Shown here: positions 1 through 29,473 of the stretch, piece by piece
Numbering within the stretch: position 1 is the stretch's first letter
Layout of the letters: every line of letters starts with the position of its first letter
Assembly (NCBI GenBank): GCA_030832085.1
Contig: JAURJU010000059.1
Span: 1-64,000, forward strand
Length of the DNA: 64,000 nt
Source: Chitinophagales bacterium
GTDB lineage: Bacteria > Bacteroidota > Bacteroidia > Chitinophagales > Chitinophagaceae
Reading direction: 5' to 3'
Made by a program: the position numbers and the translations under genes
Notes under the pieces: model-generated
The model's input: only the letters and a program-made list of their open reading frames with translations
Told to the model about the DNA's origin: nothing
Database searches by the model: none

Positions 1-492
1 GATTTAATTAATGATTTTAATGAGAGAAAATTAAGTAGGAGTAGTACAAAAAGTTTATCTGAATCAATTAATAAGTTACTTAAAGTTCGTTTAACTGAAT
101 TAGGTTGGATAGCAGAATCTCCTATTTTTAGAGAAGAGCCTTATGATTCCACAAACAATAGTGCATGGAGATTGGATTTTGCAAAAAATAATATTTCTAT
201 TGAAGTAGCGTTTAATCATGGGGAGGCAATTGCTCACAACATTATTAAACCTGTTTTAGCTAGTGAATTAAATCATGTTCAAAAGAATATTCAAACAAAA
301 TTAGGTGTAATCATAACTACTAATGAGGATATGAAACGAAAAGGTGGGTTTGATGGGGCAGTTGGAACTTTTGAAAAATTTATATCTTATTTTAAACCAT
401 ATAGTAATATAGTTACAACTCCAATTGTGTTAATTGGATTGAAAGAACCTAAAACTTTTGAGATAGTAAATAAGGAAGTAATTTACTATTGA
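1..492 (+). CDS. BglII-like type II restriction endonuclease, 5'-truncated by the window edge
   Basis: The reading frame is open from base 1 and ends with TGA at 490-492, so only about 163 C-terminal residues are visible. A D-F...I-E-V-A-F-N-H stretch (about residues 58-71 of the visible part) fits the acidic catalytic pattern of PD-(D/E)xK enzymes of the BglII/BstYI family. A later TTPIVLIGL strand resembles the V-P-L-V-L-I-G-I element of that family. The gene is followed on the opposite strand, after a single base, by a C5-cytosine DNA methyltransferase, which is the expected partner. Codons are strongly AT-rich, as in the rest of the 1-3.5 kb segment and unlike the genes beyond. The nuclease role is inferred from motifs and context; the recognition sequence cannot be read. 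The real start lies outside the window. Confidence 0.6.
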   Translation, partial: DLINDFNERKLSRSSTKSLSESINKLLKVRLTELGWIAESPIFREEPYDSTNNSAWRLDFAKNNISIEVAFNHGEAIAHNIIKPVLASELNHVQKNIQTKLGVIITTNEDMKRKGGFDGAVGTFEKFISYFKPYSNIVTTPIVLIGLKEPKTFEIVNKEVIYY

Positions 493-493
493 G

Positions 494-1864
494 TTACTTC
501 AAAAAACTAGTTAGTGATACCCCGATTTTCTCAATAATACCAACAACCAAAGCATTACCCATTAAAAATGCTCGTTTTGTATTATTTACTACCTCTAAAT
601 TAGTAAAGTTGTCTGGGAACATATTTAATCTTTCTAGTTCTACCGGAGTTAATCTTCTAAATTTTCCTTTTTGTTCTACCACATGTTTGAATCTTGATGG
701 AGATTTTCCACCTTCTGAAGTGATGATTGTTCTTGAAGGTAAATCTAATAAATCTGGGAAGTTCATTCCTCCTTCACTAAAAGTGTAAGTATGTCCTGAA
801 GCAGATATTCTTTCTTTTTTCTTAGCACCCTTTTCTATTTCCCATTTTTTTAAATCTTTAGAATCAATCCAAAATTCTTCTTCAACTTCTTTTGAATCTA
901 TTAGTATATCTGCTAATGTTGTTTCATAATTTACTTCTGATGGTTTTACATCAATTGTAATTACTTTTCTATTAGATGAAATTCCTGAATTATGAAAAAT
1001 TGATTTTCCTTTATCTGAACCATAATTTTTTGAAATAGATTCTAAATCACCTTTTATCTCAAATTCATCTTGTAATTCTTTTGAGTTACATGGAAATCCG
1101 TTACCCAATACTCCATCTGATTCAATCCAATCAATAGGATTTACTTTCTTTCTTTGTTTCTCAATTTCAGTACTATTTAAATAACCAACAATAAAAACTC
1201 GTCTTCTTCTTTGTGGTAAACCATATTCGGCTGCATTTAATACCCTCCATTCCACTGTGTAACCTAAATCATTTAATGAAGCTAACATAACAGCAAAATC
1301 TCTACCTCTTTTATTTACAGGACTCTTAATCAATCTATCAACATTCTCTAATATCAAAAATTTAGGTTTATTCTTACCTAAATCAGAAAGAATTCTTTCA
1401 ATTTGCCACCACAAAACACCTTTTTTCCCTAACAAACCTTTTGAAGTTCTTAATGAATTAGCCACTGAATAATCTTGACATGGAAATCCTCCTACTAAAA
1501 CATCACATTTTTCTTTTAACTCTTTTACTGATAATTCAGATATATCAGAATTGAAGTGACCTTCTTTCCCAAATCTATGTTCATAGACCATTGAGGCATG
1601 TTGAATTTTTGTAGATGGTTCCCATTGGTTACTATAAACAACTTTAAATTGAGTTTTATTATTCAATGATTTCTTATAACCACTTAATGAAGATTTACCT
1701 TTATAACCTTCCAACCCTAACCTAAATCCTCCAACTCCTGCAAAAAGTTCAATTATTTTTAATGTTTTGTTTTCCATACTTAATTTTTGATTACCACTTA
1801 TACCCACAACACGGTCAAATGTTTTAAAATTGTTTAATTTCTTCATTGGTAATGTGTCTCCCAC
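494..1864 (-). CDS. DNA (cytosine-5-)-methyltransferase of a type II R-M system
   Basis: This enzyme transfers a methyl group from SAM to C5 of cytosine and would protect host DNA from the convergent nuclease. Motif I is FAGVGGFRLGLE, motif IV GGFPCQDYS holds the catalytic Cys, motif VI is ENV, motif VIII is QRRRRVF, and motifs IX/X are RRLTPVELERLNMFPDNF and GNALV. The length (456 residues) suits a single-domain enzyme with a full target-recognition region. The start is uncertain: ATG at 1864 overlaps the upstream gene by 41 bases, ATG at 1846 is next, and ATG at 1777 would put motif I near the N-terminus, as is usual in the family. Sequence specificity cannot be told from the motifs. Confidence 0.93.
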   Translation of the reverse strand: MGDTLPMKKLNNFKTFDRVVGISGNQKLSMENKTLKIIELFAGVGGFRLGLEGYKGKSSLSGYKKSLNNKTQFKVVYSNQWEPSTKIQHASMVYEHRFGKEGHFNSDISELSVKELKEKCDVLVGGFPCQDYSVANSLRTSKGLLGKKGVLWWQIERILSDLGKNKPKFLILENVDRLIKSPVNKRGRDFAVMLASLNDLGYTVEWRVLNAAEYGLPQRRRRVFIVGYLNSTEIEKQRKKVNPIDWIESDGVLGNGFPCNSKELQDEFEIKGDLESISKNYGSDKGKSIFHNSGISSNRKVITIDVKPSEVNYETTLADILIDSKEVEEEFWIDSKDLKKWEIEKGAKKKERISASGHTYTFSEGGMNFPDLLDLPSRTIITSEGGKSPSRFKHVVEQKGKFRRLTPVELERLNMFPDNFTNLEVVNNTKRAFLMGNALVVGIIEKIGVSLTSFLK

Positions 1865-2327
1865 TTTTCCAAAATGATTTTGATATTCTATCAGAAAATA
1901 TTACACATTTCTCATAGTTTGAAGGAATTTCAGTATTGATAAGTTCTTTAATTTCTTCATAATTAAAAGTATTTGTAGTTAATTCGTTATTAACTAAATC
2001 TTTTATTTTTAGTGAAACACCCTTAATGAAATCTTGTTTAAAATCATTTAGAATTCTAAATAATACTGTAAGTTTTAACTTTAAATCTTCTTGTTCTTTT
2101 TTGTATCGTTTAACTCCAGTAATATCATTATTAATTATTGAATCATCCATTTTCTTTTCTAAATCTTTGTATTTCTCAGTAAGATTATCAATTGTACTTT
2201 GAACTGTCATTACTCTCACTTTAAGATTACTGATTGTAATTTTTTTCCCACTAATTTCTAGAGCCTTTTTTTTGAAGAAAAGGTAATATTGTTCCTGAGG
2301 TGTTTTAAATATATTAAATATGTTCAT
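1824..2327 (-). CDS. Hypothetical coiled-coil protein of the island
   Basis: I do not recognise this 167-residue protein. Its middle part (about residues 30-95) is rich in Lys, Glu, Asp and Leu with heptad-like spacing and probably forms a coiled coil. The C-terminal third contains a W-K-S-G-R-H segment. There is no signal peptide or membrane segment. It lies just upstream of the methyltransferase on the same strand and overlaps its longest form, so the two may be translated together. Such a protein next to an R-M pair could be an accessory or a phage-type cargo protein, but nothing in the sequence decides this. Base use is AT-rich like its neighbours. Confidence 0.6.
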   Translation of the reverse strand: MNIFNIFKTPQEQYYLFFKKKALEISGKKITISNLKVRVMTVQSTIDNLTEKYKDLEKKMDDSIINNDITGVKRYKKEQEDLKLKLTVLFRILNDFKQDFIKGVSLKIKDLVNNELTTNTFNYEEIKELINTEIPSNYEKCVIFSDRISKSFWKSGRHITNEEIKQF

Positions 2328-2358
2328 TTTATAGGTTACTTAAAATTCATAATTTATT

Positions 2359-2727
2359 CTACCATTTATAGCCACAACATGGACAACTATTTTTTGTTAT
2401 TAACTTTCCATTTCCTTCAGATTCCTTTGGAAGAATAAGTTTAGTTTCTGGGTTATATCTACTTAACCATCTCCTTACAGTTTCTTTACTTAAACCTGTG
2501 TCCCGAAGATAGTTCTCCCAACCCAACTTCACACCATTTGGGTCTAAGTCGTTCCTAACACCCTGTGATAGGAGTTTGGTTTTTGCAATGTGAAGTTCTT
2601 GTAGAATTTCAACAGAAATATTTTTCCAACTAACCACTAATTTTTTCATTTTAGTGACAGATTTCTTATAATCCCAATCTTTAGGAATTTTAGGAGATTT
2701 CATATCATATAAAACAATCTCATCCAT
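2359..2727 (-). CDS. Putative DNA-binding protein with a helix-turn-helix-like region and a C-terminal Cys motif
   Basis: This is a 122-residue protein I cannot assign to a named family. Residues about 37-90 contain a long helix (EILQELHIAKTKL), a W-E-N-Y-L-R segment and GLSKETVRRWLSRY, which looks like a helix-turn-helix recognition unit and recalls phage and plasmid proteins of the DUF3102 kind. The last residues, CPCCGYKW, form a knuckle that could bind metal, perhaps in a dimer because only one Cys cluster is present. It is encoded between the coiled-coil gene and a third unknown gene, all on the minus strand. A role as regulator or DNA-binding accessory of the island is an inference. Confidence 0.55.
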   Translation of the reverse strand: MDEIVLYDMKSPKIPKDWDYKKSVTKMKKLVVSWKNISVEILQELHIAKTKLLSQGVRNDLDPNGVKLGWENYLRDTGLSKETVRRWLSRYNPETKLILPKESEGNGKLITKNSCPCCGYKW

Positions 2728-2781
2728 AGTTCATAGGTTATAAATGGAAATTACTAAAATCTTTAGTAATAGCCTAATTTT

Positions 2782-3093
2782 TTAATTGTTTTTATTTTTG
2801 ATTAACTCATCTAATCTTTCCCAAATCTCCTCAATAACCTCAATTTCTCTTTCCGATATTGGGTGTTCTAATAAGGTTTTGACTTTGTGTTCAAACCTAA
2901 ATAATATTTTCTCTTTAGCCGTCTTTTTTGTTCCAATAAAGTTTTTAGAGAATTGCGAAAAGTGTAAAAAATGAAGTGGAAAAGCATTTACCAAACCATT
3001 GAACCACCAGTATGAAATCATCCCTTGTGGAGGACTAAAACAAAATACTCTCAATTGAGCTAGTGACTTACTTCTATTTTTGTTAACAGACAT
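2782..3093 (-). CDS. Hypothetical protein of the island
   Basis: This 103-residue protein is not recognised. The N-terminal half is aromatic (YWWFNGL, FPLHFLHFSQF) and basic. The C-terminal half is a charged helix (ISEREIEVIEEIWERLDELI), which could mediate dimerisation. It is the first gene of the minus-strand group that leads to the methyltransferase, and the stretch upstream of it (3094-3480) has several inverted repeats. The start at 3093 is the only Met that gives the full frame. It could be a short regulator, but there is no motif to support that. Confidence 0.45.
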   Translation of the reverse strand: MSVNKNRSKSLAQLRVFCFSPPQGMISYWWFNGLVNAFPLHFLHFSQFSKNFIGTKKTAKEKILFRFEHKVKTLLEHPISEREIEVIEEIWERLDELIKNKNN

Positions 3094-3122
3094 AGGTTTT
3101 GAAATTTTTTAGGTTAAAAATT

Positions 3123-3233
3123 CATCACCAGAAAAAATGAGAGAGAATTACATTTTATTTTGACCTGTAAGTCCTCATCGCTTTACCACCGTGGAGTTAG
3201 TTCTCTCGGTTGGTACCCGTTTGGGTTCTTGAT
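3123..3233 (-). ncRNA. Candidate structured leader RNA
   Basis: The complementary 7-mers GAGAGAA (3141-3147) and TTCTCTC (3201-3207) enclose two small hairpins: GAC/GTC at 3162-3173 and CCAC/GTGG at 3186-3194. A further ACCC/GGGT hairpin (3215-3226) follows. An imperfect outer pairing joins CATCACCA near 3123 to TGGTG near 3227. The block lies upstream of the minus-strand gene at 2782-3093 and would form its 5' leader. I match it to no known RNA family; it may simply be AT-rich sequence with chance pairing. Confidence 0.25.
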
Positions 3234-3489
3234 GATGGTGTGAAGATATATAGATTTTTAGATTCTAAATCCGAAAATCCAATTACAATGATTAAATAGA
3301 AGGTGGTACGATATATTTCGTACTAGAAATCCAATGGATTCTTGAATAAAAGACACTATACTCTTAACATCAGTTAATTCAGTGTGTTATTGTGATTGTA
3401 GTATGTGGTTAATTTGAGTATTTTCTCTGAAACTGAACCAAAACAGAGTAAAAAGTGTGGAACCACAGTGTAACGGAGGTATAGACATG
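3234..3489. other. AT-rich stretch without genes between the island genes and tRNA-Asp
   Basis: I see no open frame of useful length here. It contains three short inverted repeats: TTTAGA/TCTAAA near 3260, GTACGA/TCGTAC at 3306-3323, and AATCCA/TGGATT at 3328-3340. They could be binding sites of an island regulator or an integration protein. I found no second copy of the tRNA-Asp 3' end in it, so any partner attachment site must lie left of the window. Confidence 0.4.
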
Positions 3490-3493
3490 AAAA

Positions 3494-3516
3494 AACCCAT
3501 TGAAAATCAATGGGTT
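3494..3516 (-). terminator. Intrinsic terminator of tRNA-Asp
   Basis: A perfect 10-bp stem with a 3-base loop (arms 3494-3503 and 3507-3516) is followed, reading on the minus strand, by a run of T residues at 3490-3493. It lies 13 bases beyond the 3' end of the tRNA and should end its transcript. Confidence 0.75.
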
Positions 3517-3529
3517 ATGTTCTATTTTG

Positions 3530-3603
3530 CGGACCGGACGGGACTCGAACCCGCGACCTCCGCCGTGACAGGGCGGCATTCTAACCAACTGAACTACCGA
3601 TCC
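3530..3603 (-). tRNA. tRNA-Asp (anticodon GTC)
   Basis: Read on the minus strand, the gene has the acceptor stem GGATCGG/CCGGTCC, a D-loop with GTTCAGTTGGTTAGAA, the anticodon loop CTGTCAC giving GTC, and a T-loop GGTTCGAGTCC. The discriminator base is G and CCA is not encoded. The AT-rich island starts on its 3' side, which is the usual integration site of tyrosine-recombinase elements. A TATCTTTG promoter box lies 33 bases upstream. Confidence 0.96.
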
Positions 3604-3635
3604 TACTTTTGATGAAAAACATCAAATTCGGGTTG

Positions 3636-3643
3636 CAAAGATA
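3636..3643 (-). promoter_or_regulatory. -7 box (TATCTTTG) of tRNA-Asp
   Basis: This is an exact match to the Bacteroidetes -7 consensus TAnnTTTG on the minus strand, 32 bases before the tRNA-Asp 5' end. A TTG that could serve as the -33 element lies about 22 bases upstream. Confidence 0.6.
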
Positions 3644-3695
3644 ATGCTTTTGTGTTTTTTAAAGAACAATTTCTTGAATTTTTTATTCAACGCAG

Positions 3696-4271
3696 TTATT
3701 GTTCAATATCTAAACCATATGCATCCAGCAACCCAGTGATACCAGGCCATGCAAATTTGGCTTTTTTGAGTTTGTTCTTCTCAGGATCAATGGAATAGTT
3801 GAACGCGCTCCTGAAGTCAGCCTTTTCAAGCCTTGATCCATCAAAGATGGATCCCAACAGGTCGCAGCGTTCGAAAAATGCTCCAACAAGGTTGGTTTCA
3901 GTGAAGTCAACTTCATGCAAGGCAGAATTGCTGAACCTTGTGCTTTGCATGTTCAATTTGACAAAAGAACAGAGTTTTATTGAGCAGTTGTCAAATTGTA
4001 CTGTAAAAAGGAACTTGCTGCAATCTTCAAAGTGAAGCCCTATTATCTTGCATTCCTTGAAGGTTACGTTCCTAAAAGTTGTGTGTTTGAGTGATGTCAT
4101 GCTGAATTGGCAGCCGATAAACATTGAATCGGCAAAACTTGAACCGGAAAGGTCGCAAGAAGAAAAATCGCACTGGTCAAATTCACATTCCTCATGGTCG
4201 CTGGCCGGGTAGGTTGCTCCGGAAAAGGAGACTTTTTCAAGGTGTATGCCCTCGTGCATTGGTCTTTCCAT
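3696..4271 (-). CDS. Pentapeptide-repeat protein
   Basis: This 191-residue protein is built of A(D/N)LXX-type repeats (for example CDLSGSSFADSMF, and ETNLVGAFFERCDLLGSIF), which fold into a right-handed quadrilateral beta-helix. Its size and the ending KKAKFAWPGITGLL recall the Qnr/McbG-like group that mimics DNA, though many such proteins have no known role. The frame is open up to 4370, but the Met at 4271 is preferred because the RNase Z gene ends at 4279, seven bases upstream. It is the last gene of a STAS - RNase Z - pentapeptide unit on the minus strand. Protection of gyrase is only a possibility. Confidence 0.85.
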   Translation of the reverse strand: MERPMHEGIHLEKVSFSGATYPASDHEECEFDQCDFSSCDLSGSSFADSMFIGCQFSMTSLKHTTFRNVTFKECKIIGLHFEDCSKFLFTVQFDNCSIKLCSFVKLNMQSTRFSNSALHEVDFTETNLVGAFFERCDLLGSIFDGSRLEKADFRSAFNYSIDPEKNKLKKAKFAWPGITGLLDAYGLDIEQ

Positions 4272-18566: not shown

Positions 18567-21500
18567 ATGTTGAATGCAATCATCCGCTTTTCCGTCAGGA
18601 ACAAGCTTATCATAGGATTATTTACACTGGGATGGATCGTTTGGGGAGCCATAGAATTGTTCAAGCTACCCGTTGATGCACTACCAGACATTACTTCCAA
18701 TCAAGTTCAAGTGATCACCGTTTCACCCACGCTGGGTTCACTTGAGGTGGAAAGGTTGATTACCTTTCCCATTGAGCAGGCGTCTTCGAATATACCAGGT
18801 ATAAAGGAAATACGCTCCATCTCAAGGTTTGGGCTCTCTGTTGTTACAATTGTTTTCGATGACGACAAGGACATTTATTGGGCCCGTCAACAGGTCAGCG
18901 AAAGGATGTTGTTGGTGAGGGATGAGATTCCCAGGGAAGCGGGTACTCCGGAGCTTGCACCTGTTACAACCGGATTGGGTGAAATTTACCAGTATATCGT
19001 TCGTCCAAAGAAGGGCTATGAAGATAAATACGACCTGACCGAATTGCGCACCATTCAGGATTGGATCATCCGAAGGCAATTGTTGGGAACACCTGGCGTT
19101 GCAGATGTCAGCAGTTTTGGTGGGAAGCTCAAGCAATATGAAGTGGCAATCGATCCTGTCAAATTGAAGGGTGCAGGCGTCAACTTGGACCAGGTATACA
19201 ACGCCATCCAGAGCAACAACCAGAATTCGGGTGCCGCTTATATTGAGAAGGGTCCTTCTTTGCTTTTTGTACGCTCAGAAGGGCTTGTAAAATCTGTTGA
19301 TGATATCCACAATATCTATGTTGCCAAATCATCCTCAGGCACACCCATATACATCAGGGATGTTGCAGAAGCCAGGATAGGAAGCCCGGTACGCTATGGC
19401 GCACTCACCTATATGGATGAGGGCGAAGTTTCAGGGGCTGTGGTGCTCATGCTCAAGGGAGAAAACGCCACTGATGTAATTGGTCATATTGAGGATCGGA
19501 TGAAGCAGATTCAAAAATCATTGCCCGAAGGTGTTGAAGTAATTGCGTTCTTGGACAGGACAAAAATGGTCAACCGTACCCTGGGTACAGTGAAGACCAA
19601 TTTGCTGGAAGGCGCAACAATTGTTTTGCTCATTCTTGTTTTCTTTCTGGGAAATATTAGGGCAGGAATAGTAGTGGCTTCCGTGATTCCATTGGCCATG
19701 CTTTTTGCCGTTGGAATGATGAATCTTTTTGGAGTGACCGGAAACCTCATGAGCCTTGGGGCACTTGATTTTGGATTGATTGTGGATGGGGCAGTAATCA
19801 TTGTGGAAGCCGTTCTTCACCGCTTGCATTCTAACAAACACCAAGGGCTTCAATTGCAACAGGCGCAAATGGATCAAACCGTTGAACAGTCTGCCGGCAG
19901 AATGATGGGAGCAGCGGTGTTTGGACAAATCATCATTCTGATCGTTTACATTCCCATTCTGAGCCTTACAGGTATAGAAGGCAAGATGTTCAAGCCCATG
20001 GCGCAAACGGTTGCCTTTGCGCTTGTAGGAGCCTTCATTCTCTCGCTTACGTATGTTCCGATGATGACAAGCATCGTGTTGAATAAAAAGTTGAACAACC
20101 ATGATAATTTTTCAGACAGGATGATGCTGAAACTTCAGGGAGGATTTCAAAAAGCCCTTTCGCGTTTGTTGCAGCATCCCAAGAAAGTGGTACTCGGATC
20201 TGTTGTATTGCTGGTCCTGTCTATTTTTGTTGCAGGTACGCTTGGGGGAGAATTCATACCAGAACTGGAGGAGGGAGACTTTGCCATTGATGCAAGACTG
20301 ATGACCGGAAGTTCATTGGATGAAACAATCGATGCAACCACCAAGGCGGTTCATGAATTGAAAAAGTTTCCTGAGGTGCAAAAAGTGGTAACAAGAATCG
20401 GGTCCAGTGAAATTCCTACCGACCCAATGCCCATAGAAATGACTGACATCATCGTCAACCTAAAACCCAAAAAAGAATGGACCAGCGCTGAAAATTATGA
20501 TGAGCTGGCCAACAAAATGAGTGCTGCTATCGGTAAGGTGCCTGGACTGACAGGTGGTTTTCAATACCCTGTTCAGATGCGTTTCAATGAATTGATTGCG
20601 GGTGCCAAACAAGACGTGGTCTGCAAGATTTTTGGCGAAGACCTGGATACCCTTGCTTATTATGCAGCCCAATACGAAGCGGTCATACACAAGGTAGAAG
20701 GGGCAAAAGACGTGTTTACTGAAAGGGTAACCGGATTGCCCCAGATTGTCATCAAATACAAGCCAGCAGCCATCGCAGCATACGGGTTAAGCATTGCCGA
20801 TGTAAACAGGGTGCTCCGGGCTTCTTTTGCGGGTGAGGTTGCCGGCCAGGTATATGAAAACGAGAGACGGTTTGACCTGGTGCTTCGGTTGAAGGAATCA
20901 AGAAGGAATGACCTTTCTGATATCAGGAACCTCATGGTAACCAATCCTGATGGGATGGCCATCCCCATATCGCAACTGGCAGAAATTGCAATTGAAGAAG
21001 GGCCTAATCAGGTGCAGCGCGAAGATGCCAAACGCAGAATAACCGTGGTATTCAACGTTCGGGACCGCGATGTTCAATCCGTTGTGAAGGAATTGCAGTC
21101 AAAGGCAGAAACGAAAATCAAATTGCCGGCAGGTTACTATGTGAAATTTGGCGGGCAGTTTGAAAATTTGGTGGAGGCCAAAGAAAGGTTGATGATCGCT
21201 GTTCCAATTGCCTTGCTTTTGATTTTGCTGATCCTTTATTTTTCATTCGGCTCATTGCGCTATGGATTGCTGATCTATACTGCTATTCCCCTTTCTGCCA
21301 TTGGCGGCATCCTCTTGCTCTGGATGCGTGACATGCCTTTCAGCATCTCCGCTGGGGTAGGCTTCATAGCACTTTTTGGTGTGGCAGTTTTGAATGGTAT
21401 CGTTTTGATCAATGAATTCAACCGCTTGAAAAACGAAACTACATTGGACATGAAAGATTTGGTATTGAAGGGCACTTCAACAAGACTGAGACCAGTGTTA

Positions 21501-22952
21501 ATGACGGCAGCTGTAGCATCGTTGGGATTTCTTCCGATGGCATTGAGCACAAGCTCTGGAGCAGAGGTACAGCGGCCATTGGCCACAGTGGTGATAGGTG
21601 GATTGATTTCAGCAACATTGTTGACGCTTTTTGTCTTGCCCGTTTTATACGTGTGGGTAGAGCGCAGAAAAGGTTCCATCAAGGCTCCTGCACTTTCATT
21701 CCTCTTGGTATTCCTCTCAATCACTGGCAGTAGCCAGACAACTGTAGAAGAAATGCATGGATACATCAATACCAGGCCTACTGCCTCAATGCCCATTGAC
21801 TCCATCATTGCCATGGCAGACAGGAATGCCATATCGCTCAAGCTGGCAGGAAAGCAGATGGACTATTATGCAGCATTAAAGAAAAAATCTGCTGAGATTC
21901 CAAAGACTTCCATGGGGGTTGAATACGGAAACATCAACAGTGCTTTGAATGATACCCGATTTTTTCTAAACCAGCAGTTTCAATTGCCCAAGGTTTATGC
22001 AAGGCAAAAAGCAGTTTATGCTGGTTCAGAGGCCTTGTATGCGGCAAAGAAAGACCTTAGACAGGCGGCATTGCATCTTGAGATCAGACAAATCTGTTAC
22101 AAGATCATGGACCTTGACAGAAGGGACGAGATCCTTTACCGTTTCTTGCGGGTATTTTCCAGTTGGGAAGAAAAGGCAAAGGTTCAACAGGCGGCGGGTG
22201 AAATCAATGCTGCGGTCTTGAATGGCATAGCCCTTCAAGCCAAGCAGTATCTCTTTCAGAAAAAGGAATTGGAAGCCGATCGCTATACCCTTATCCAAGA
22301 GCTCAATAGCATGATCATGTCTGGTAGCAATTACAAACCGTCATTGGACAATACAGTAGAAAAAGAAATTCCAAGTTTGGTGACATCTTTTGCATCGCAT
22401 CCAGCAATAAAAGCTGCGGAGGAAAAGGTGAAGTTGAGCCAGGCAGAAACAGCGTTGGAAAAAAACAGGCTTGCACCGGATTACAGCCTGGGATACAGCA
22501 ACCTTTCCATCCAGGGCTGGCAATCTCCAGATGGGCTTACCCAAAAATACTATTCACCTTCAAACAGGTTCGGCATTTTTCAATTCGGTGCATTGATTCC
22601 CATTTTTAATGGTGCTTCCAAAGCGAGAATCAATGCTGCGAAAGCTGCGGAAACCATGGCTTCCCTCGAAAAACAACAGGAACAGGAAAACCTCAACCGG
22701 AAACTGACGGATGTGATTTCTCAGTTTCGGGCCGCAAAGGAGGCTTATGATTATTATCAATCTACAGGCCTGAAATTGTCGATTGAGTTATGGCAGCAAG
22801 CAATGAAAAGGCTGGAACTTGGAGACATTTCATACGCTGAGTATACCATGTTGCTGTCCCAGCACCTGCAAAGTTTGATTTCACACGCGGCATCCATTCA
22901 TCAACTGCAAATGGCATCGGCATCACTTCAATTTCTAACCGAAAAAAAATAA
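18567..22952 (+). CDS. HME-type RND metal efflux pump fused to a TolC-like outer-membrane channel
   Basis: Residues 1 to about 1034 are a complete heavy-metal RND transporter: N-terminal helix, LPVDALPDITSNQVQV, two periplasmic porter halves and twelve membrane segments. TM4 carries DFGLIVDGAVIIVE at about residue 400, the DFG-x3-DGA-x3-VE proton-relay form seen in divalent-metal (Zn/Co/Cd type) pumps rather than the Cu/Ag form. After the last helix comes SFLLVFLSITGSSQ, which looks like an internal signal sequence, and then about 400 residues of an OMF protein with long heptad helices (EKVKLSQAETALEKNRLAPD and similar). Separate CzcA and CzcC genes are the norm elsewhere; this fused form is seen in Bacteroidetes. 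The adaptor gene follows after three bases. Confidence 0.93.
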   Translation: MLNAIIRFSVRNKLIIGLFTLGWIVWGAIELFKLPVDALPDITSNQVQVITVSPTLGSLEVERLITFPIEQASSNIPGIKEIRSISRFGLSVVTIVFDDDKDIYWARQQVSERMLLVRDEIPREAGTPELAPVTTGLGEIYQYIVRPKKGYEDKYDLTELRTIQDWIIRRQLLGTPGVADVSSFGGKLKQYEVAIDPVKLKGAGVNLDQVYNAIQSNNQNSGAAYIEKGPSLLFVRSEGLVKSVDDIHNIYVAKSSSGTPIYIRDVAEARIGSPVRYGALTYMDEGEVSGAVVLMLKGENATDVIGHIEDRMKQIQKSLPEGVEVIAFLDRTKMVNRTLGTVKTNLLEGATIVLLILVFFLGNIRAGIVVASVIPLAMLFAVGMMNLFGVTGNLMSLGALDFGLIVDGAVIIVEAVLHRLHSNKHQGLQLQQAQMDQTVEQSAGRMMGAAVFGQIIILIVYIPILSLTGIEGKMFKPMAQTVAFALVGAFILSLTYVPMMTSIVLNKKLNNHDNFSDRMMLKLQGGFQKALSRLLQHPKKVVLGSVVLLVLSIFVAGTLGGEFIPELEEGDFAIDARLMTGSSLDETIDATTKAVHELKKFPEVQKVVTRIGSSEIPTDPMPIEMTDIIVNLKPKKEWTSAENYDELANKMSAAIGKVPGLTGGFQYPVQMRFNELIAGAKQDVVCKIFGEDLDTLAYYAAQYEAVIHKVEGAKDVFTERVTGLPQIVIKYKPAAIAAYGLSIADVNRVLRASFAGEVAGQVYENERRFDLVLRLKESRRNDLSDIRNLMVTNPDGMAIPISQLAEIAIEEGPNQVQREDAKRRITVVFNVRDRDVQSVVKELQSKAETKIKLPAGYYVKFGGQFENLVEAKERLMIAVPIALLLILLILYFSFGSLRYGLLIYTAIPLSAIGGILLLWMRDMPFSISAGVGFIALFGVAVLNGIVLINEFNRLKNETTLDMKDLVLKGTSTRLRPVLMTAAVASLGFLPMALSTSSGAEVQRPLATVVIGGLISATLLTLFVLPVLYVWVERRKGSIKAPALSFLLVFLSITGSSQTTVEEMHGYINTRPTASMPIDSIIAMADRNAISLKLAGKQMDYYAALKKKSAEIPKTSMGVEYGNINSALNDTRFFLNQQFQLPKVYARQKAVYAGSEALYAAKKDLRQAALHLEIRQICYKIMDLDRRDEILYRFLRVFSSWEEKAKVQQAAGEINAAVLNGIALQAKQYLFQKKELEADRYTLIQELNSMIMSGSNYKPSLDNTVEKEIPSLVTSFASHPAIKAAEEKVKLSQAETALEKNRLAPDYSLGYSNLSIQGWQSPDGLTQKYYSPSNRFGIFQFGALIPIFNGASKARINAAKAAETMASLEKQQEQENLNRKLTDVISQFRAAKEAYDYYQSTGLKLSIELWQQAMKRLELGDISYAEYTMLLSQHLQSLISHAASIHQLQMASASLQFLTEKK

Positions 22953-22955
22953 TTC

Positions 22956-24092
22956 ATGAAATATTCAACGCAATTGTTCATCCTTATCTGGTTCTTCATC
23001 CAAAGTTGTTCAGGAACCAAAACAGCACCTGCCGAAGCAGCTGCTGTTGAAGAAAGCAACGCCATCCATCTTACCCAGGATCAGTTGAAAGTACTGGGCC
23101 TTCAATTTGGAAATCCTGTTAAGACAAGCATGAGCAGTGTCATTGCAGTGCAAGGCAAAATAGACCTGCCTCCACAAAATCTCATCTCTGTTAACTTTCC
23201 GATGGGAGGATACCTCAAGCGTACAAAACTCATTCCCGGTATGCACGTATCAAAAGGGGAGGTGATTGCCATCATGGAAGATCAGGCCATTGTTCAACTG
23301 CAACAAGATTATCTTTCTGCTGTTGCACGTCTGGACCTTGCAGGCCTTGAACTTGAAAGGCAAAAAGCACTTGCTGACGCGCGTGCAGGAACCTCAAAAG
23401 CGTTGCAACAAGCCCAGGCCGAGCAGAAGCTACAGGCAGTCGCTGTAAGGTCTTTACAGGAAAAACTGAAGTTGATTGGCATTGATGTAAACGTACTCAA
23501 TGAATCCAATATCTCAGGCCAGGTCTCTGTAAGGTCAACCATCAACGGATACGTATCTAAGGTCAATGTGAATACCGGAAAGTATGTTCAGCAGACTGAG
23601 ACCATGTTTGAGTTGATTGATCCGGAAGATATTCATGTGGCACTTACCCTTTTTGAAAAGGATTTGCCGTATGTGCATCAAGGAAACCAGGTCAGCATTC
23701 ATTTCATGGATGAGCCAGAAAAAACCTATGCTGCAGAAGTTATATTGGTCAACAAAGGACTGGATGATGACAGGACGGCTACAGCACATTGTCATTTCAA
23801 AGTTCATCCCAAAAATCTCTTGCCAGGCATGTTTGTGGAAGGTGAGTTGGCTGTAAAAAATAAACAGGTCGTCGCTGTTCCAGATGAAGCCATTGTAAGA
23901 CTGGGCAACAATCAGTATATTTTTATCAGAAAATCTGACAATGTGGTTGAATTGAAATCAGTGGCTACGGGTCTTTCCAAAGATGGAAAAACAGAATTGA
24001 TTACCGGCTATGAAGGCATTCCTGCAGGCGCTGTCGTTTTAAACCAGGCCTACAAATTGTTGGGAATCCTCAAAAACAGCGGGGAAGAATAA
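22956..24092 (+). CDS. Periplasmic adaptor lipoprotein of the RND pump (CusB/CzcB type)
   Basis: The protein (378 residues) links the inner-membrane pump to the channel. It is a lipoprotein: the signal peptide ends in IQSC at about residue 18. Next come a beta-barrel strand (VIAVQGKIDLPPQNLISVNF), the lipoyl half-motif GYLKRTKLIPGMHVSKGEVIA, an alpha-hairpin coiled coil (about 115-175), the second lipoyl half with STINGYVSKVNVNTGKYVQ, and the C-terminal barrel and membrane-proximal domains. It starts three bases after the pump stop and ends two bases before the convergent cupin gene. There is no metal-binding N-terminal Met/His stretch as in CusB. Confidence 0.93.
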   Translation: MKYSTQLFILIWFFIQSCSGTKTAPAEAAAVEESNAIHLTQDQLKVLGLQFGNPVKTSMSSVIAVQGKIDLPPQNLISVNFPMGGYLKRTKLIPGMHVSKGEVIAIMEDQAIVQLQQDYLSAVARLDLAGLELERQKALADARAGTSKALQQAQAEQKLQAVAVRSLQEKLKLIGIDVNVLNESNISGQVSVRSTINGYVSKVNVNTGKYVQQTETMFELIDPEDIHVALTLFEKDLPYVHQGNQVSIHFMDEPEKTYAAEVILVNKGLDDDRTATAHCHFKVHPKNLLPGMFVEGELAVKNKQVVAVPDEAIVRLGNNQYIFIRKSDNVVELKSVATGLSKDGKTELITGYEGIPAGAVVLNQAYKLLGILKNSGEE

Positions 24093-24094
24093 TT

Positions 24095-24412
24095 CTATTC
24101 GCGGTAGTCTTCCCGAACAGGGCTGAATACATCAATCAAAACACTGTCTGAATGGGCGATGGCTGAGTGTGGAGTATTGGCGGGAATGACCTTCACCACA
24201 CCCGGCTCAAGCAGAAACGTTTCATCACCGATTTGCATTTCCATTTTTCCCTCAAGCATCAGGGTAATTTGTTCGTGGGGATGATGGTGCGCAGGAAGTT
24301 TTCTGCCTGCCTTGATGGTAACCCATCCCAAGGTTGTGCTGTCGCCATGAACATACTGGCCGACAATGCCTTCTGTGAGCAATTTCTTTTTCAATTCGCT
24401 GATCCTTGGCAT
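24095..24412 (-). CDS. Small cupin-domain protein, last gene of the amidoligase operon
   Basis: This is a single beta-barrel cupin of 105 residues. Motif 1 reads LPAHHHPHEQITLMLEGKMEM, with the metal-binding His pair and Glu, and motif 2 reads VIPANTPHSAIA, with the third His. It therefore should bind a divalent metal. It starts 12 bases after the stop of the ATP-grasp-like gene, so it belongs to the five-gene operon read from 28567. Such stand-alone cupins can be isomerases, dioxygenases or sensors; here it may act on the product of the ligases, which is inference from position only. Confidence 0.85.
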   Translation of the reverse strand: MPRISELKKKLLTEGIVGQYVHGDSTTLGWVTIKAGRKLPAHHHPHEQITLMLEGKMEMQIGDETFLLEPGVVKVIPANTPHSAIAHSDSVLIDVFSPVREDYRE

Positions 24413-24424
24413 GTTGTTGATTGT

Positions 24425-25618
24425 TTATTGTTCAAAATAGGCCACGCTGCCGCCCACCCAATCCTTATCCTTGTTGTAACGCACACCAATCATTTTTCCT
24501 TTGCTCAACCTTGCAAGGTTCGTGGCCAGGGTTGGTCTTTCTTTTCCATTTTCCCAGATATACATCAGTCGAACTTCTGCCTTGGCAGGTTCTTCGGGTG
24601 TTGATATGCAGGGGGCATAATTTACTTTGCGTTGAAGAATCCAGTTTTCAGGATCTGCAATTCCTTCGATATGTGCTCTTGTTAGATCAATGACCACGCC
24701 TTGTCCAGCAAATGAAAACAGCGGCTTCAAGACATAATTTTCAAGATCCGCAGGAATGCTTTTCAGTTCATTCAGAAAAAAGGTTGTTGGTATGAACGGG
24801 TGGTTTAGAAACGGAAGGGTAAATTTTGATATTCTGTAAAACCAGTTGGGGTGGGGGACCCATTCAACATCAAGGTCTGAAGTCATATCGATGATCGGAC
24901 CAAGTTCATTTTTTACTGCATTCAATTCATCTGCGATGATCCGGTTGTACATCCGCTTTACCCTTGTTTTGATGCCATTGTGAATATAATATATTTCTCT
25001 TCCTTCTTGCTTCAAATCAGTAATACAAACCGGCCTGATGCCTAAATAATCAGAAGTGCAAAAAAAATCAATCCTGGTCTTTTGGGTTTCAGGTTTTATT
25101 TCAAGTAGAATTACTTCTTCTGGTTTGTGCTCCCCGATGATCACACGCCTGAGCAATGCGATATAACCTGGTTTGTCAAGTTCATTGAAATAATGTGAAA
25201 AGCCATCTGGAATTGTAAAATGCCTTTCCAGGATCTCGGGATAGAACGCTTGCATTCCAAAAAGCGTTGGGAATCCTTGCATCTCAATCAAAGCGGGGAA
25301 AAACAGTCCTTCATGATTTTCGCAGATGCCAAAGTCAAACGAAATAAAGTGACAGATGTCATTTTGGTGCGGCACAACTTCTGACGGAGGTATTGATCTT
25401 GCAGTGCATGCATCGAAGTCAGGACTTTTGATGAAGTCAATGATGTACTCACAGGTGTCCATCATCTGTTGGCCAAATTTTCTGTCAATGAATATGGGAG
25501 TTTCTGCAATGCGAAAATCAATTGCACCTGGGTGGGCGCTGTTCAGTTCCTTGAGGAAGTTTTCATATTTTTCCCGGCTGAATGATGCATTAAATTCTTC
25601 CCTAATCCATTTGATCAT
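24425..25618 (-). CDS. ATP-grasp-like protein of unknown specificity
   Basis: This 397-residue protein has no named family that I can recall. Its C-terminal third carries ATP-grasp features: the strand YVLKPLFSFAGQGVV (Lys and Gly-rich loop), WILQRKV, AEVRLMYIW (Arg of the R-motif) and WVGGSVAYFEQ. The N-terminal two thirds contain HQNDICHFISFDFGICEN and long helices without clear motifs. The pattern recalls the glutathionylspermidine-synthase-like branch. It lies between the amidotransferase (12-base gap) and the cupin (12-base gap). It probably forms an amide or ester bond at the cost of ATP; the substrates are unknown. Confidence 0.7.
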   Translation of the reverse strand: MIKWIREEFNASFSREKYENFLKELNSAHPGAIDFRIAETPIFIDRKFGQQMMDTCEYIIDFIKSPDFDACTARSIPPSEVVPHQNDICHFISFDFGICENHEGLFFPALIEMQGFPTLFGMQAFYPEILERHFTIPDGFSHYFNELDKPGYIALLRRVIIGEHKPEEVILLEIKPETQKTRIDFFCTSDYLGIRPVCITDLKQEGREIYYIHNGIKTRVKRMYNRIIADELNAVKNELGPIIDMTSDLDVEWVPHPNWFYRISKFTLPFLNHPFIPTTFFLNELKSIPADLENYVLKPLFSFAGQGVVIDLTRAHIEGIADPENWILQRKVNYAPCISTPEEPAKAEVRLMYIWENGKERPTLATNLARLSKGKMIGVRYNKDKDWVGGSVAYFEQ

Positions 25619-25630
25619 GGTTCGTTGGGT

Positions 25631-26467
25631 TTATGAAAGGCTGTATGGGTTTATTATTTTTGCGATAGACTGCATGATGAAGTTGGGCAGCATTAGGCTG
25701 TTGGTCATGCCAATTTTTTCCGGGTCGTTCAATTGCTCAATCATGGATTCCCACTTTTCATGGCCGTGGTTTTCAATCACTGTTTTTTTCTTGTCTTCTC
25801 TTTTGAGGTACATACTCATGCCTTGTGCATCTGCCTCAGGATGAAATTGTGTTCCAACCATGTATGGGTTGAACCGGATCGCCATGATGGCCCGCTCAAG
25901 GTCTATATGAGGCCTTTCCTTTTCAATACATAGCATCGTTGCGTCCAACGCTTGCATTCTGGAAAGATTTGGCTGAATGACCTGAAAGTCTCTGCTGTCA
26001 ACAGCAAAGAAAGGGTCTGCGAGTCCGTTGAATACTGGTTCGTCCTGACCATTTTGCATCCTGTGCATGGGGAATACGCCAAACGCAGTTGATTTCCTTT
26101 TGGTAACAGTGGCCAAAGCAAAATACCTGCAGGCCAGTTGATAGGAATGACAAATGAAAAAAGCGAATTTCCTGTTGATGTTCTTGGGATTGTTGTTCCA
26201 GTTGACGAGGGTGGAAAGCCATTGGCAATAAGCCATGTCCCATTTGCTTCCTTCGCTGTCCAGTGGACTTCCTGGACCGCCTGATGATATGAAAATATCA
26301 TGCTCAAGGGATGGAAGCTCAATCCTTTTTCTTACTTCGAATTCTTCCCATACAAGATCCACTTGCTGTTCATTCTTGAGCCGGTCCAATATTTCCCGGA
26401 TGCAACGCATGCCCTCGTTCTGCTGACCTTCATAAAGGTCCAATATGGCTATCCTGATCTGCTTCAT
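25631..26467 (-). CDS. Class I glutamine amidotransferase-like protein
   Basis: The 278-residue protein has the GATase-1 fold: ISSGGPGSPLD in the oxyanion region, the nucleophile in FFICHSYQLACR (Cys about residue 109, elbow I-C-H-S rather than the usual G-x-C-x-G), and the His-Glu pair in GTQFHPEAD. The triad is therefore complete, and the enzyme could release ammonia from glutamine or hydrolyse gamma-glutamyl bonds. It carries an extra C-terminal helical tail of about 50 residues. In the operon it sits between the GCS2 gene (18-base gap) and the ATP-grasp-like gene, so it may supply ammonia to a ligase or trim a gamma-glutamyl product. Confidence 0.88.
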   Translation of the reverse strand: MKQIRIAILDLYEGQQNEGMRCIREILDRLKNEQQVDLVWEEFEVRKRIELPSLEHDIFISSGGPGSPLDSEGSKWDMAYCQWLSTLVNWNNNPKNINRKFAFFICHSYQLACRYFALATVTKRKSTAFGVFPMHRMQNGQDEPVFNGLADPFFAVDSRDFQVIQPNLSRMQALDATMLCIEKERPHIDLERAIMAIRFNPYMVGTQFHPEADAQGMSMYLKREDKKKTVIENHGHEKWESMIEQLNDPEKIGMTNSLMLPNFIMQSIAKIINPYSLS

Positions 26468-26485
26468 TTCTGGTACAAAGGTACA

Positions 26486-27592
26486 TCAAAGGCTGCCAAG
26501 AAACTTGGACTCAATGTAAGCAGTAACCGCCTGAAAACTCTTGGTTTCTTCATATACCTTGAGTTGCCGGTCGGCACCGGTTCCTTTTTCAAGTATGTTG
26601 GTGATGCTTTTGAGTGCTGCTCTGCAGCCCAATTCATCCACCACATCGTCTATAAAATCAAGCAGTTCAAGAATCAATGACCTGGTGTTCACTTCCTGTT
26701 CCTTCCCAAAATCAATCAGCTTATCATCAATCCCGTAGCGGGAGGCCCGCCATTTGTTTTCATTCACCAATGCACGGGGGTAAATCATGAAATTCAGGTT
26801 GGAAGAACGCAGTTTGTAAAGTTTTGCGCATATGCACTGGAATAGGGCTCCAAAGCCAATGCTTTCATCCACGGTCAAAGGAACATCACATACCCTGAAT
26901 TCAACAGTGCCATAAAAAGGATGTACCCGGAGATCCCACCAGATCTTTTTTGCATTGTCGATACAATTGGTTTTGATCAGCAGGTTCACATAGTTTTCGT
27001 ATGCACTGTAATTGTCAAAGTAATCCGGTATCCCTGTTCTTGGAAACTTGTCGAACACCTTTGTCCTGTATGATTTGAATCCCGTTACACGTCCTTCCCA
27101 GAAGGGGGAATTTGCACTCAGTGCAAAAACGTGGGGAAGGAAATACCTTGCGGAGTTGGCTATGTGAATTGCCATTTCTTTGGAAGGCATACCAACATGC
27201 ACATGAAGACCAAAAATGAGGTTTGATCTTGCCGCATCCTGCATTTCATTGACGATTTCCTGGTAGCGAATATGGTCTGTAATCAGTTGTTGGCGCCAAG
27301 TGCTGAAGGGATGGGTTCCTGCGGCACCAACACTGAAGCCCAGTGAATCAGCAATGCCGTGGATTGTTTTTCTGAGGGTATAAATATCATGCCTTGCCTC
27401 TTCAATGTTGTCGCACACATCTGTGCCGACTTCGACCACCGCTTGGTGCATTTCAGCCTTTACCTTTTCACTGATGATTTTCTGACCTTCTGTAACAATC
27501 TTCTGTTCATGGCTGATCAGCTCTTTTGTGGCAGGATCGATAACCATGTATTCTTCTTCGATACCGACAGTGAAATGCTTATGGTTGATCAT
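26486..27592 (-). CDS. Carboxylate-amine ligase, GCS2/YbdK family
   Basis: GCS2 enzymes join the gamma- or alpha-carboxylate of an amino acid (often Glu) to an amine using ATP. The 368 residues show GIEEEYMVIDP at the start, GAAGTHPFSTW, NLIFGLHVHVGMPS and FRVCDVPLTVDE, all diagnostic of the family. E. coli YbdK has weak glutamate-cysteine ligase activity; actinobacterial relatives act in ergothioneine synthesis. This organism appears to make bacillithiol (bshC lies in the same window), so plain glutathione synthesis is not the obvious role. It is second in the operon, 15 bases after the ATP-grasp gene. Confidence 0.93.
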   Translation of the reverse strand: MINHKHFTVGIEEEYMVIDPATKELISHEQKIVTEGQKIISEKVKAEMHQAVVEVGTDVCDNIEEARHDIYTLRKTIHGIADSLGFSVGAAGTHPFSTWRQQLITDHIRYQEIVNEMQDAARSNLIFGLHVHVGMPSKEMAIHIANSARYFLPHVFALSANSPFWEGRVTGFKSYRTKVFDKFPRTGIPDYFDNYSAYENYVNLLIKTNCIDNAKKIWWDLRVHPFYGTVEFRVCDVPLTVDESIGFGALFQCICAKLYKLRSSNLNFMIYPRALVNENKWRASRYGIDDKLIDFGKEQEVNTRSLILELLDFIDDVVDELGCRAALKSITNILEKGTGADRQLKVYEETKSFQAVTAYIESKFLGSL

Positions 27593-27607
27593 GGCAAAGT
27601 GTTTTTT

Positions 27608-28567
27608 TCATTTGGTGAGGGGTTTGCCAACCGTACTTTTTTTGATATAGTCTCCCCATGAAAGATTGTCCGCCCCTTCACGCACATTTTGTGCAGTTTC
27701 AATGGCATGGTTGGCGGATGTTTCAACCACCCAATCAAAATTTTCCTGACCAACGCTTTTGAGGTCTGCATCTGGTGCAGGATTGCAGAAATCAATGGCA
27801 TAGGGAACGCCATCCCTGATGGCCAATTCTACGGTGTTGAAATCATACCCAAGATGGTTGTTGATGTTCAGTACAATCTCTTCCATGGTTTTTAGCATCT
27901 TCGCAGATGGCTTGAAGCCCGCAACATAGCGGAGGTGGTGGGGGTTTCGTGGTTCATAGGGCATGATGCGCACATGCTTCCTGCCGATACAGTAACACCT
28001 GTAGTATTCCTCAAATACAATTTCTTCCTGCAGCAACATCACCAATTGTCCGGTTTCTGCATGTCTTTCAAAAAACTCATCCCTGTCGTTCAGGCGATAA
28101 ACATTCTTCCAACCGCCACCGGCGAATGGTTTCATGTAAGCGGGGAATCCAACATAGCCAAATATCCCTTCCCAGTCCAATGGGTAGGCAAGGTTGGAAA
28201 ACGACTCGGATGAGGTATCGTCTGGCAATTCCCTTGAGGGAAGAATGACAGTCTTGGGTACTGGCACACCAATTTTTGTGGCAAGTGCATTGTTGAAAAA
28301 CTTTTCATCTGCGCTCCACCAAAAGGGGTTGTTGATGACTGCGGTTCCGGAAATCGCGGCGTTCTTTAGAAATGCCCTGTAAAAAGGAACATCCTGGGAG
28401 ATCCGGTCAATGATGACAGCATATCCAGAAGGTTCTCCTTGCATCACCTTGTCAATTTTCACAGGTTCTGCAACAATCCCCTTTATATTTTTTTCATTGA
28501 TTTTCTTGATCAGTGCCTCTGGGAAAGACCGTTCTTTCCCGTGCAGAATTCCTATTTTTTTTGTCAT
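27608..28567 (-). CDS. ATP-grasp ligase (D-Ala-D-Ala ligase/RimK-like)
   Basis: This is the first gene of the five-gene operon. Its 319 residues show the ATP-grasp core: NPFWWSADEKFF in the pre-ATP region, YVGFPAYMKPFAGGGWKNVY (Lys and Gly-rich loop), MLLQEEI (Glu/Gln hinge), RIMPYEPRN, and the metal-binding VELAIRDGVPYAIDFCNPAP (Glu and Asn near the end). It would activate a carboxylate as acyl-phosphate and join it to an amine or thiol. The neighbouring GCS2, amidotransferase and second ATP-grasp genes suggest successive bond-forming steps. The substrates cannot be read from the sequence. Confidence 0.88.
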   Translation of the reverse strand: MTKKIGILHGKERSFPEALIKKINEKNIKGIVAEPVKIDKVMQGEPSGYAVIIDRISQDVPFYRAFLKNAAISGTAVINNPFWWSADEKFFNNALATKIGVPVPKTVILPSRELPDDTSSESFSNLAYPLDWEGIFGYVGFPAYMKPFAGGGWKNVYRLNDRDEFFERHAETGQLVMLLQEEIVFEEYYRCYCIGRKHVRIMPYEPRNPHHLRYVAGFKPSAKMLKTMEEIVLNINNHLGYDFNTVELAIRDGVPYAIDFCNPAPDADLKSVGQENFDWVVETSANHAIETAQNVREGADNLSWGDYIKKSTVGKPLTK

Positions 28568-28648
28568 GATTTTTCTTGTTGACCCAAGTTAATGAATTTA
28601 TTGATGACCCATGGCAACAAGTCAAGCCCAATAGAAGGATCCTTTTGT

Positions 28649-28656
28649 TATTTTTG
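28649..28656 (+). promoter_or_regulatory. -7 box (TATTTTTG) of the divergent esterase
   Basis: This is an exact TAnnTTTG match 31 bases before the ATG at 28688. It excludes the longer frame that begins at 28592, upstream of the promoter. Confidence 0.55.
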
Positions 28657-28687
28657 CGCCATACAATCAAGGCAACAAATAGGAGCG

Positions 28688-29473
28688 ATGGGCAACTTCA
28701 ATACCATACTCGTTCATTCAGGGTATCTTTCAAGGACAGTGGAAGTGGATATCTATGGACTTTTGGGAATACCCTCTTCTGTTCCCGTAAAATTGTTGCT
28801 CATGAACGATGGCCAGGACTTGCAAAAAATGAATTTTGCGTCCATCGTGGAAAAGTCCATTCCTCCATCATTTCACCTCGTTTGTATTGGTATCCATGCA
28901 GGCCCTGATCGAAAGCTTGAATATGGTATTTCTGGTTTTCCTGATTTTATGCAAAGGGGCAATAGGGCCACTGCATACACTGCATTCGTGATGGAAGAAC
29001 TGCTTCCTGCCATCCAAGTGCAATTGGAGGGCAGAGCCCATAGCCATATTTTTTTATCAGGATTTTCTTTAGGAGGGTTGATGGCTTTCGATATGGCAAT
29101 TGATTTTCCTGCTGTTTTCAGTGCCGTTGGCGTATTCAGTGGATCATTCTGGTGGAGGTCCAAGGCGTTGGACAATGGATATGATGAAGCCCGTGACCGC
29201 ATCATGCATGCCAAGTTAAAGACCAGCAGGTATCATGAAAACCGCAGGTTTTTTTTACAGGTTGGTGCCTTGGATGAGACAGTAGACCGCAACAACAACG
29301 GCATCATCGATGCGATTGATGATACATTGGATATCATCAGGGAATTGGAGTTGTTGGGATATGAAAAAGGAACGCAGATCAGATACCTTGAATTGCATGA
29401 TGGTCGCCATGATGTTGAAACATGGGGTAGGGCGATGCCGGAATTCATGGGATGGCTCGCCAGCCTTGCGTAA
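28688..29473 (+). CDS. Alpha/beta-hydrolase esterase (enterochelin-esterase-like)
   Basis: This 261-residue esterase of the D/Fes-like fold has LLLMNDGQDL near the start, the nucleophile in FLSGFSLGGLMAF, an Asp in the ALDETVDRNNNG loop region and the His in LHDGRHDVETWGRAM. No signal peptide is seen, so it should act in the cytoplasm. It is read away from the amidoligase operon with an intergenic space of 120 bases. The start at 28688 follows the promoter box and, unusually for this genome, an AGGAG sequence at 28681-28685. It may cleave an ester or amide made by the operon, which is inference from context. Confidence 0.85.
   Translation: MGNFNTILVHSGYLSRTVEVDIYGLLGIPSSVPVKLLLMNDGQDLQKMNFASIVEKSIPPSFHLVCIGIHAGPDRKLEYGISGFPDFMQRGNRATAYTAFVMEELLPAIQVQLEGRAHSHIFLSGFSLGGLMAFDMAIDFPAVFSAVGVFSGSFWWRSKALDNGYDEARDRIMHAKLKTSRYHENRRFFLQVGALDETVDRNNNGIIDAIDDTLDIIRELELLGYEKGTQIRYLELHDGRHDVETWGRAMPEFMGWLASLA

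Follow-up and report, generated by a model that had tools for sequence, protein, structure and literature searches.

The 64 kb stretch of DNA analysed here (the window; positions 1 to 64,000 of contig JAURJU010000059.1, assembly GCA_030832085.1) belongs to the 2.89 Mb draft genome of a Chitinophagales bacterium and carries, at 24095-28567 on the minus strand, an operon of five open reading frames (ORFs) that encodes putative amide-bond-forming ligases, together with a divergently read esterase gene. The features are the following.

27608-28567, minus strand: A1, probable ATP-grasp carboxylate-amine ligase, Ddl/RimK/LysX-like (sub-threshold family matches, PDB profile, predicted fold)
26486-27592, minus strand: G2, carboxylate-amine ligase of the GCS2/YbdK family (PF04107, PRK13515, PDB 1r8g)
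25631-26467, minus strand: GT, class-I glutamine-amidotransferase-like protein, predicted gamma-glutamyl or amide hydrolase (PF00117, catalytic triad, replacement by M29-type peptidases)
24425-25618, minus strand: A2, predicted ligase of the glutathione synthetase (GSHS)/GspS/YgiC fold (predicted fold)
24095-24412, minus strand: small, single-domain, accessory cupin (PF07883)
28688-29473, plus strand (ORF from 28592): divergent alpha/beta-hydrolase, enterochelin-esterase-like (PF00756)
28568-28687, no strand: intergenic space shared by A1 and the esterase, a possible divergent promoter region

A preliminary description of this DNA had reported five genes with only 12-18 bases between neighbours and an esterase gene diverging from them, and the ORFs together with Pfam and NCBIfam matches confirm this layout. 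By ORF coordinates, the gaps are 15 (A1/G2), 18 (G2/GT), 12 (GT/A2) and 12 bases (A2/cupin). Pfam models above their cut-offs name four of the six proteins (G2, GT, cupin and esterase), and, by their conserved residues, A1, G2, GT and the esterase look catalytically intact.

G2 matches PF04107 at 204.7 bits (E 2.7e-60) and the NCBIfam model PRK13515 at 519 bits, and in the PDB it matches YbdK (1r8g, E 1e-48). The GhExE signature, described for GCS2 and PafA in PMC2588565, corresponds to G10-I11-E12-E13-E14, with G10, E12 and E14 invariant in 10 alignment rows. For YbdK itself, activity as a gamma-glutamyl:cysteine ligase has been reported (Lehmann 2004, by its title as cited in PMC2588565).

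A1 gave RimK-family matches below threshold (29 bits against a cut-off of 143; TIGR00768, E 4.7e-07), and the best PDB match of its profile was the D-Ala-D-Ala ligase 3r23 (E 3.9e-4). This agrees with its predicted model (pLDDT 87.3), for which the top PDB folds were D-Ala-D-Ala ligases, the RimK-domain protein 5i47, ArgX/LysX and PsnB. Residues K146, E247, D259 and N262 are invariant in 23 alignment rows, and the nearest relative among the matches listed is a protein from a Chitinophagaceae metagenome-assembled genome with 92 percent identity. Neither A1 nor A2 had a relative on plasmids (no match at 1e-10 and 1e-8), 12 pattern matches to A1 in viral contigs included no true relative, and A2 had no match in a viral fold library at E<=0.001. 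In one distant family, a histidine ammonia-lyase gene follows A1 in all six loci where A1 was called (L074, L209, L210, L212, L213, L215), while three more loci of the family had no A1 call; the HutH assignment rests on 684 bits by NCBIfam (L074). The two genes overlap by one base in two loci, one overlapping ORF intervenes in L212, and upstream of A1 lie genes that read as lpxH-like and panB-like. We leave this linkage as an observation because the remaining neighbours look like housekeeping genes.

The preliminary description had called A2, the fourth protein, ATP-grasp-like, and its fold bears this out. In the AlphaFold model (pLDDT 90.4; A2 was modelled together with 16 relatives), all 31 PDB matches at E<=0.001 were GSHS or GSHS-like proteins, GspS, YgiC/YjfC or the E-64 ligase Cp1B, and the first match beyond these had an E value of 0.28. 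The best match was 3n6x, and 1m0w, 8fbz and 3kal had E values of 8e-13 to 3e-10. Judged from the model, A2 thus belongs to the glutathione synthetase/GspS/YgiC fold group. An hhalign comparison with YgiC/YjfC/Gss gave E 3.5e-4 and a probability of 37 percent over 48 columns in the ATP-binding region, whereas the control, A1 against the same target, gave 0.5 percent. Against PF03738, A2 scored 10.9 bits with a cut-off of 29.3 (E 0.25).

The class-I amidotransferase family of GT (PF00117, 34.9 bits against a cut-off of 22.8, E 1.6e-08) was confirmed as well, and the triad C106, H209 and E211 is conserved in 17/17 and 18/18 rows. The esterase ORF of 293 residues matches PF00756 (63.9 bits, E 2.6e-17). 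It opens at 28592, but the ATG at 28688 is closely preceded by TAGGAG and is the likelier start, which leaves 120 bases between the divergent start codons. S159 and H273, in the numbering of that ORF, are conserved in 30 or more of the 31 rows, and a signal peptide was not apparent by eye. The cupin matches PF07883 (53.3 bits, E 2.3e-14).

Distribution was studied in an even sample of 392 Bacteroidota genomes, for which a completeness of 85 or more was requested. About a third of them (136) carry A1, 115 carry A2 and 87 carry GT, while A1 is absent from four A2 genomes and two GT genomes. As the preliminary description had supposed, the amide-ligase set is conserved across genera (A1 in 92 of the 174 sampled). 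Linkage confined to this strain, which that description named as a refutation, was not what we found, and the phylum counts led us to reject a strain-specific accident. A1 and A2 occur jointly in 111 genomes (Fisher 5e-67, a value not corrected for kinship). When eight weak A1 matches (27-44 percent identity, none with A2) were dropped, 128 clear A1 genomes were left, 111 with A2 and 17 without. The genes are often apart: A1 and A2 lie on the same strand within 10 kb in 64 of the 111 genomes and lack close linkage in the remaining 47, and by the same measure A2 and GT are linked in 50/70 and all of A1, A2 and GT in 40/69, counts that are lowered by broken contigs. With close linkage missing in so many A1+A2 genomes, the association seems to outlive linkage.

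Gene order was surveyed in the best 80 of at least 583 confirmed A1 relatives; two of these loci had no upstream gene and eight had fewer than two downstream genes. The divergence of the esterase from the operon is conserved: in 74 of the 80 loci, an esterase-family gene is read divergently no more than four genes upstream of A1. Downstream on the same strand, within eight genes, were found G2 (74 loci, directly next in 64), GT (20), A2 (18) and the cupin (4), and the order G2-GT-A2 followed A1 in 17. The full gene order is also present in cultured Pedobacter strains (L165, L167, L168, L170, L174, L175). Anywhere within the loci the counts are 23 for GT, 21 for A2 and 5 for the cupin (L097, L129, L131, L143, L154). 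The cupin, counted earlier as one of the five operon genes, is therefore a minor, lineage-limited component. A second set of 40 loci from many families, from which three were dropped since ORF picking had missed A1, showed an esterase-family gene upstream of A1 in 18 and, on its downstream side, G2 in 19, GT in 14 and A2 in 15; the full order was present in 9. The core is A1, G2 and A2, often loosely linked. The preliminary description looked for a conserved gene order in many genera without other linked genes. The gene set does recur over many genera, but an amidase, an amidohydrolase, M17 and M29 peptidases and a further ATP-grasp protein are linked to it in some lineages. In Chitinophagaceae-type loci, GT is preceded by an amidase and an amidohydrolase (L143, L172), an amidohydrolase (L131, L141) or an amidase (L166). 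Two further families of the same class contribute three loci (L061, L062, L068) with an M17 aminopeptidase, a fourth amide ligase (ATP-grasp, about 400 residues) and additional esterase-family genes near the core set.

Two positions in the set are filled by other proteins in part of the phylum. A circularly permuted ATP-grasp protein (PF14403, above 680 bits) is present in 16 of the 17 clear A1 genomes without A2 and in none of the 12 A1+A2 and seven A1-negative genomes tested. By coordinates it stands directly after A1 in 16/16, with GT next in 15/16. Among solved structures it is closest to 3n6x (E 2.5e-8), the same entry that is the best fold match of A2. A2 or this protein is thus present in 127 of the 128 clear A1 genomes; the seventeenth genome without A2 (G411) has G2 and lacks the permuted protein. 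As the 16 genomes sit in nine families and may form one clade, they do not count as 16 independent events. Among 45 chosen genomes, the G2 subfamily was found in 16 of 17 with A1 and A2, in none of 11 without A1, in G411, and at lower scores (316-420 bits) in 8 of the 16 with the permuted protein.

In some genomes a peptidase occupies the place of GT. A profile built from four M29-peptidase-like proteins (E<=1e-30) matched in 42 of the 392 genomes; nine score above 500 bits and the others at most 132 bits, the line being drawn after the gap had been seen. The low-scoring matches occur in genomes with and without A1 and were taken as the general family. Each of the nine genomes with the high-scoring, M29-type protein carries A1 and A2 and lacks GT; in eight of them the gene for this protein is no more than 1 kb away from A2, and in seven it sits between A1 and A2. 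Among 20 A2 loci, two have GT nearby; in six of the other 18, the gene immediately upstream of A2 belongs to the amidohydrolase family. In these six (L177, L178, L182, L185, L186, L187) A1 is unlinked and the amidohydrolase-family gene stands in the usual place of GT.

Taken together, the families, folds, conserved residues, linkage, co-occurrence and replacement pattern suggest a pathway for a gamma-glutamyl peptide or peptide-amine, of the glutathione or glutathionylspermidine type and with its own hydrolases, across much of Bacteroidota. We give this reading about an even chance. Substrates, order of steps, product and the role of the esterase are what we infer: a gamma-glutamyl-type amide because of the family of G2, and a second extension because of the fold of A2. 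G2 would link the side-chain carboxylate of glutamate, or of an analogue, to an amine. A2 may then activate the free carboxylate of that product and attach to it either another amino acid or an amine, perhaps a polyamine, and A1 would make one further amide bond. One of these bonds would be cleaved for turnover by GT, for which M29-type peptidases or amidohydrolases may substitute in other lineages, and the esterase might cleave or transfer an ester or thioester of the product.

Several observations weigh against this pathway. No Pfam or NCBIfam model was matched by A2 over its cut-off, GSHS and GspS families included; its sequence alone matched no PDB chain, and the sole PDB match of its profile was YgiC at E 0.62. 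The motif R-x-D ... E-x-N of Gss and YgiC, a metal/substrate motif, appears to read F-x-D95 ... E112-x-Q114 in A2, according to a comparison made by eye in a part that hhalign left unaligned. The hhalign comparison of A2 with the permuted ATP-grasp protein was weak (probability 1.3 percent). Half of the genomes with the permuted protein lack G2, so a GCS2-type bond is not made by every version of the pathway. GT is missing in 42 of the 111 A1+A2 genomes, 33 of which also lack the M29-type protein. The uncorrected kinship behind the joint occurrence of A1 and A2 belongs here too.

GT might instead be a true amidotransferase that supplies ammonia from glutamine to A1 or A2, in which case the product would end in a carboxamide. 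Its family, the conserved C106/H209/E211 and SGGPG stretch, and its closeness to A2 (same strand, at most 10 kb apart) in 50 of the 70 genomes holding both would fit such a role. Yet M29-type peptidases fill its slot elsewhere, six of 18 scattered loci have an amidohydrolase ahead of A2, and 42 genomes manage with A1 and A2 in the absence of GT. Its best PDB profile matches are weak and none is an amidotransferase by name (homoserine O-succinyltransferase, E 0.0045; an uncharacterised protein, E 0.076). We consider ammonia delivery unlikely. Because M29-type peptidases occupy its place in some genomes, and because amide hydrolases are a frequent partner of the set, hydrolysis is a likelier role for GT than the donation of nitrogen. 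The family assigned earlier stands, with an intact triad, while the handling of nitrogen has become less likely.

The neighbouring G2 and A2 could also be a non-orthologous pair for ordinary low-molecular-weight thiol synthesis, making glutathione or gamma-Glu-Cys-X. The preliminary description had thought plain glutathione improbable. In agreement with that, the organism's own genome has no match to the GshB family PF02955 at E<=1e-5. The glutathione synthetase/GspS fold of A2 and its place beside a GCS2 ligase nevertheless weaken the argument against glutathione-type chemistry. PF02955 matched 29 of 58 genomes tested, and matches above 170 bits are rarer in A1-positive (1/39) than in A1-negative genomes (8/19), a difference that would suit the thiol explanation and is confounded by family. 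Against it, A2 has no GSHS family match, the most frequent member of the set is a third ligase, A1, and bacillithiol genes do not discriminate. The bacillithiol marker bshC, which the preliminary description had placed in the window, is there (PF10079), and it was found in 57 of the same 58 genomes regardless of A1 (38/39 A1-positive, 19/19 A1-negative). This also led us to reject a replacement of bacillithiol. Ordinary thiol synthesis is, in our judgement, rather improbable. The eight A1-negative genomes with a GshB-like ATP-grasp protein (L225-L232, 173-191 bits) have near it a protein of about 610-620 residues in five of the eight loci, and often one of about 260-280 residues; we take these to resemble DUF1704/QEGLA and N-formylglutamate amidohydrolase proteins.

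The idea that the ligases modify a protein or a ribosomal peptide, as in RimK-, graspetide- or Pup-like tagging, rather than a free metabolite seems to us a still poorer prospect. It would draw on the folds matched by A1, which include RimK, LysX/ArgX with their carrier protein LysW and the graspetide ligases PsnB and 7mgv, and on the relationship of the G2 family to the Pup ligase PafA (PMC2588565). Nevertheless, neither the 12-18 bases between operon genes nor the 120 bases of divergent space can hold a precursor or carrier gene, the search having covered these spaces and not the rest of the genome, and the proteins that A2 resembles (GSHS, GspS, YgiC, Cp1B) act, by name, on small peptides, acids and amines. 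A graspetide or other RiPP (ribosomally synthesised and post-translationally modified peptide) cluster was rejected for the same want of precursor space beside A1, and a MurT-GatD amidation pair because no Mur ligase family is present among the operon proteins.

Among the known systems closest to the gamma-glutamyl pathway proposed here is glutathione synthesis by gamma-glutamylcysteine ligase and eukaryote-type glutathione synthetase, in which GCS2 and GSHS-fold ligases likewise go together; in contrast, the operon adds to these a third ligase as well as a hydrolase and an esterase, and A2 passes no GSHS model. Gss and YgiC/YjfC of Escherichia coli share with A2 the fold (7uk8, 7uk6, 2io7) and a P-x-W...K...YVxKP stretch, but identity in the fold alignments is 14-16 percent, the R-x-D/E-x-N motif appears to differ, and the K-12 stretches around ygiC and yjfC that were examined have no GCS2 gene. 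YgiC and YjfC are peptide-spermidine ligases (Pederick 2023, as cited in PMC12568646, and by RefSeq product names), and YgiC is described as lacking Gsp activity in PMC12506659. The predicted amidoligase neighbourhoods of Iyer et al. (2009), as relayed in PMC4431377 and PMC8939145, likewise combine distinct peptide ligases in one operon. An alternative COOH-NH2 ligase found with a GATase-like thiol peptidase (PMC2588565) shares the pairing of a ligase with an amidotransferase-like hydrolase, while its family differs from GCS2 and the available part mentions no GSHS-fold partner. The operon is thus of the amidoligase-operon kind, a conserved, apparently intact multi-ligase pathway, and not demonstrably new in category. 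A literature search that included the accessible parts of these five PMC papers, and did not extend to the tables of Iyer et al. (2009), turned up no account of the operon, though one may exist in print.

Beyond the operon, an HlyD/CusB-family gene (22956-24092, plus strand) converges on the cupin gene, 2 bases apart, and is outside the operon. Directly before this adaptor gene lies a single ORF of 1461 residues (18567-22952, plus strand), which presumably joins a CusA/CzcA-type RND pump to a TolC-like outer-membrane efflux domain. Positions 1-4000 have a G+C content of 0.29-0.33, against 0.39-0.50 across the rest of the window, with a tRNA-Asp at 3529-3603, and could possibly be mobile or foreign DNA.

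For a pathway that is this widespread, with parts retained without linkage, a general metabolite is a likelier product than a rare antibiotic. We would go further with some reserve, at somewhat short of an even chance: the product may be a cofactor-like, phylum-wide and as yet undescribed metabolite of Bacteroidota. A1, G2 and A2 would together make this gamma-glutamyl peptide or conjugate of a peptide with a polyamine, and the pathway would be retained even where its genes lie apart. Two glutathione-synthetase-like enzymes would be alternatives for the second ligase, and any of several unrelated amide hydrolases could provide turnover. If the product is indeed glutathione- or glutathionylspermidine-like, a major phylum that encodes bacillithiol would have a second layer of small-molecule chemistry.

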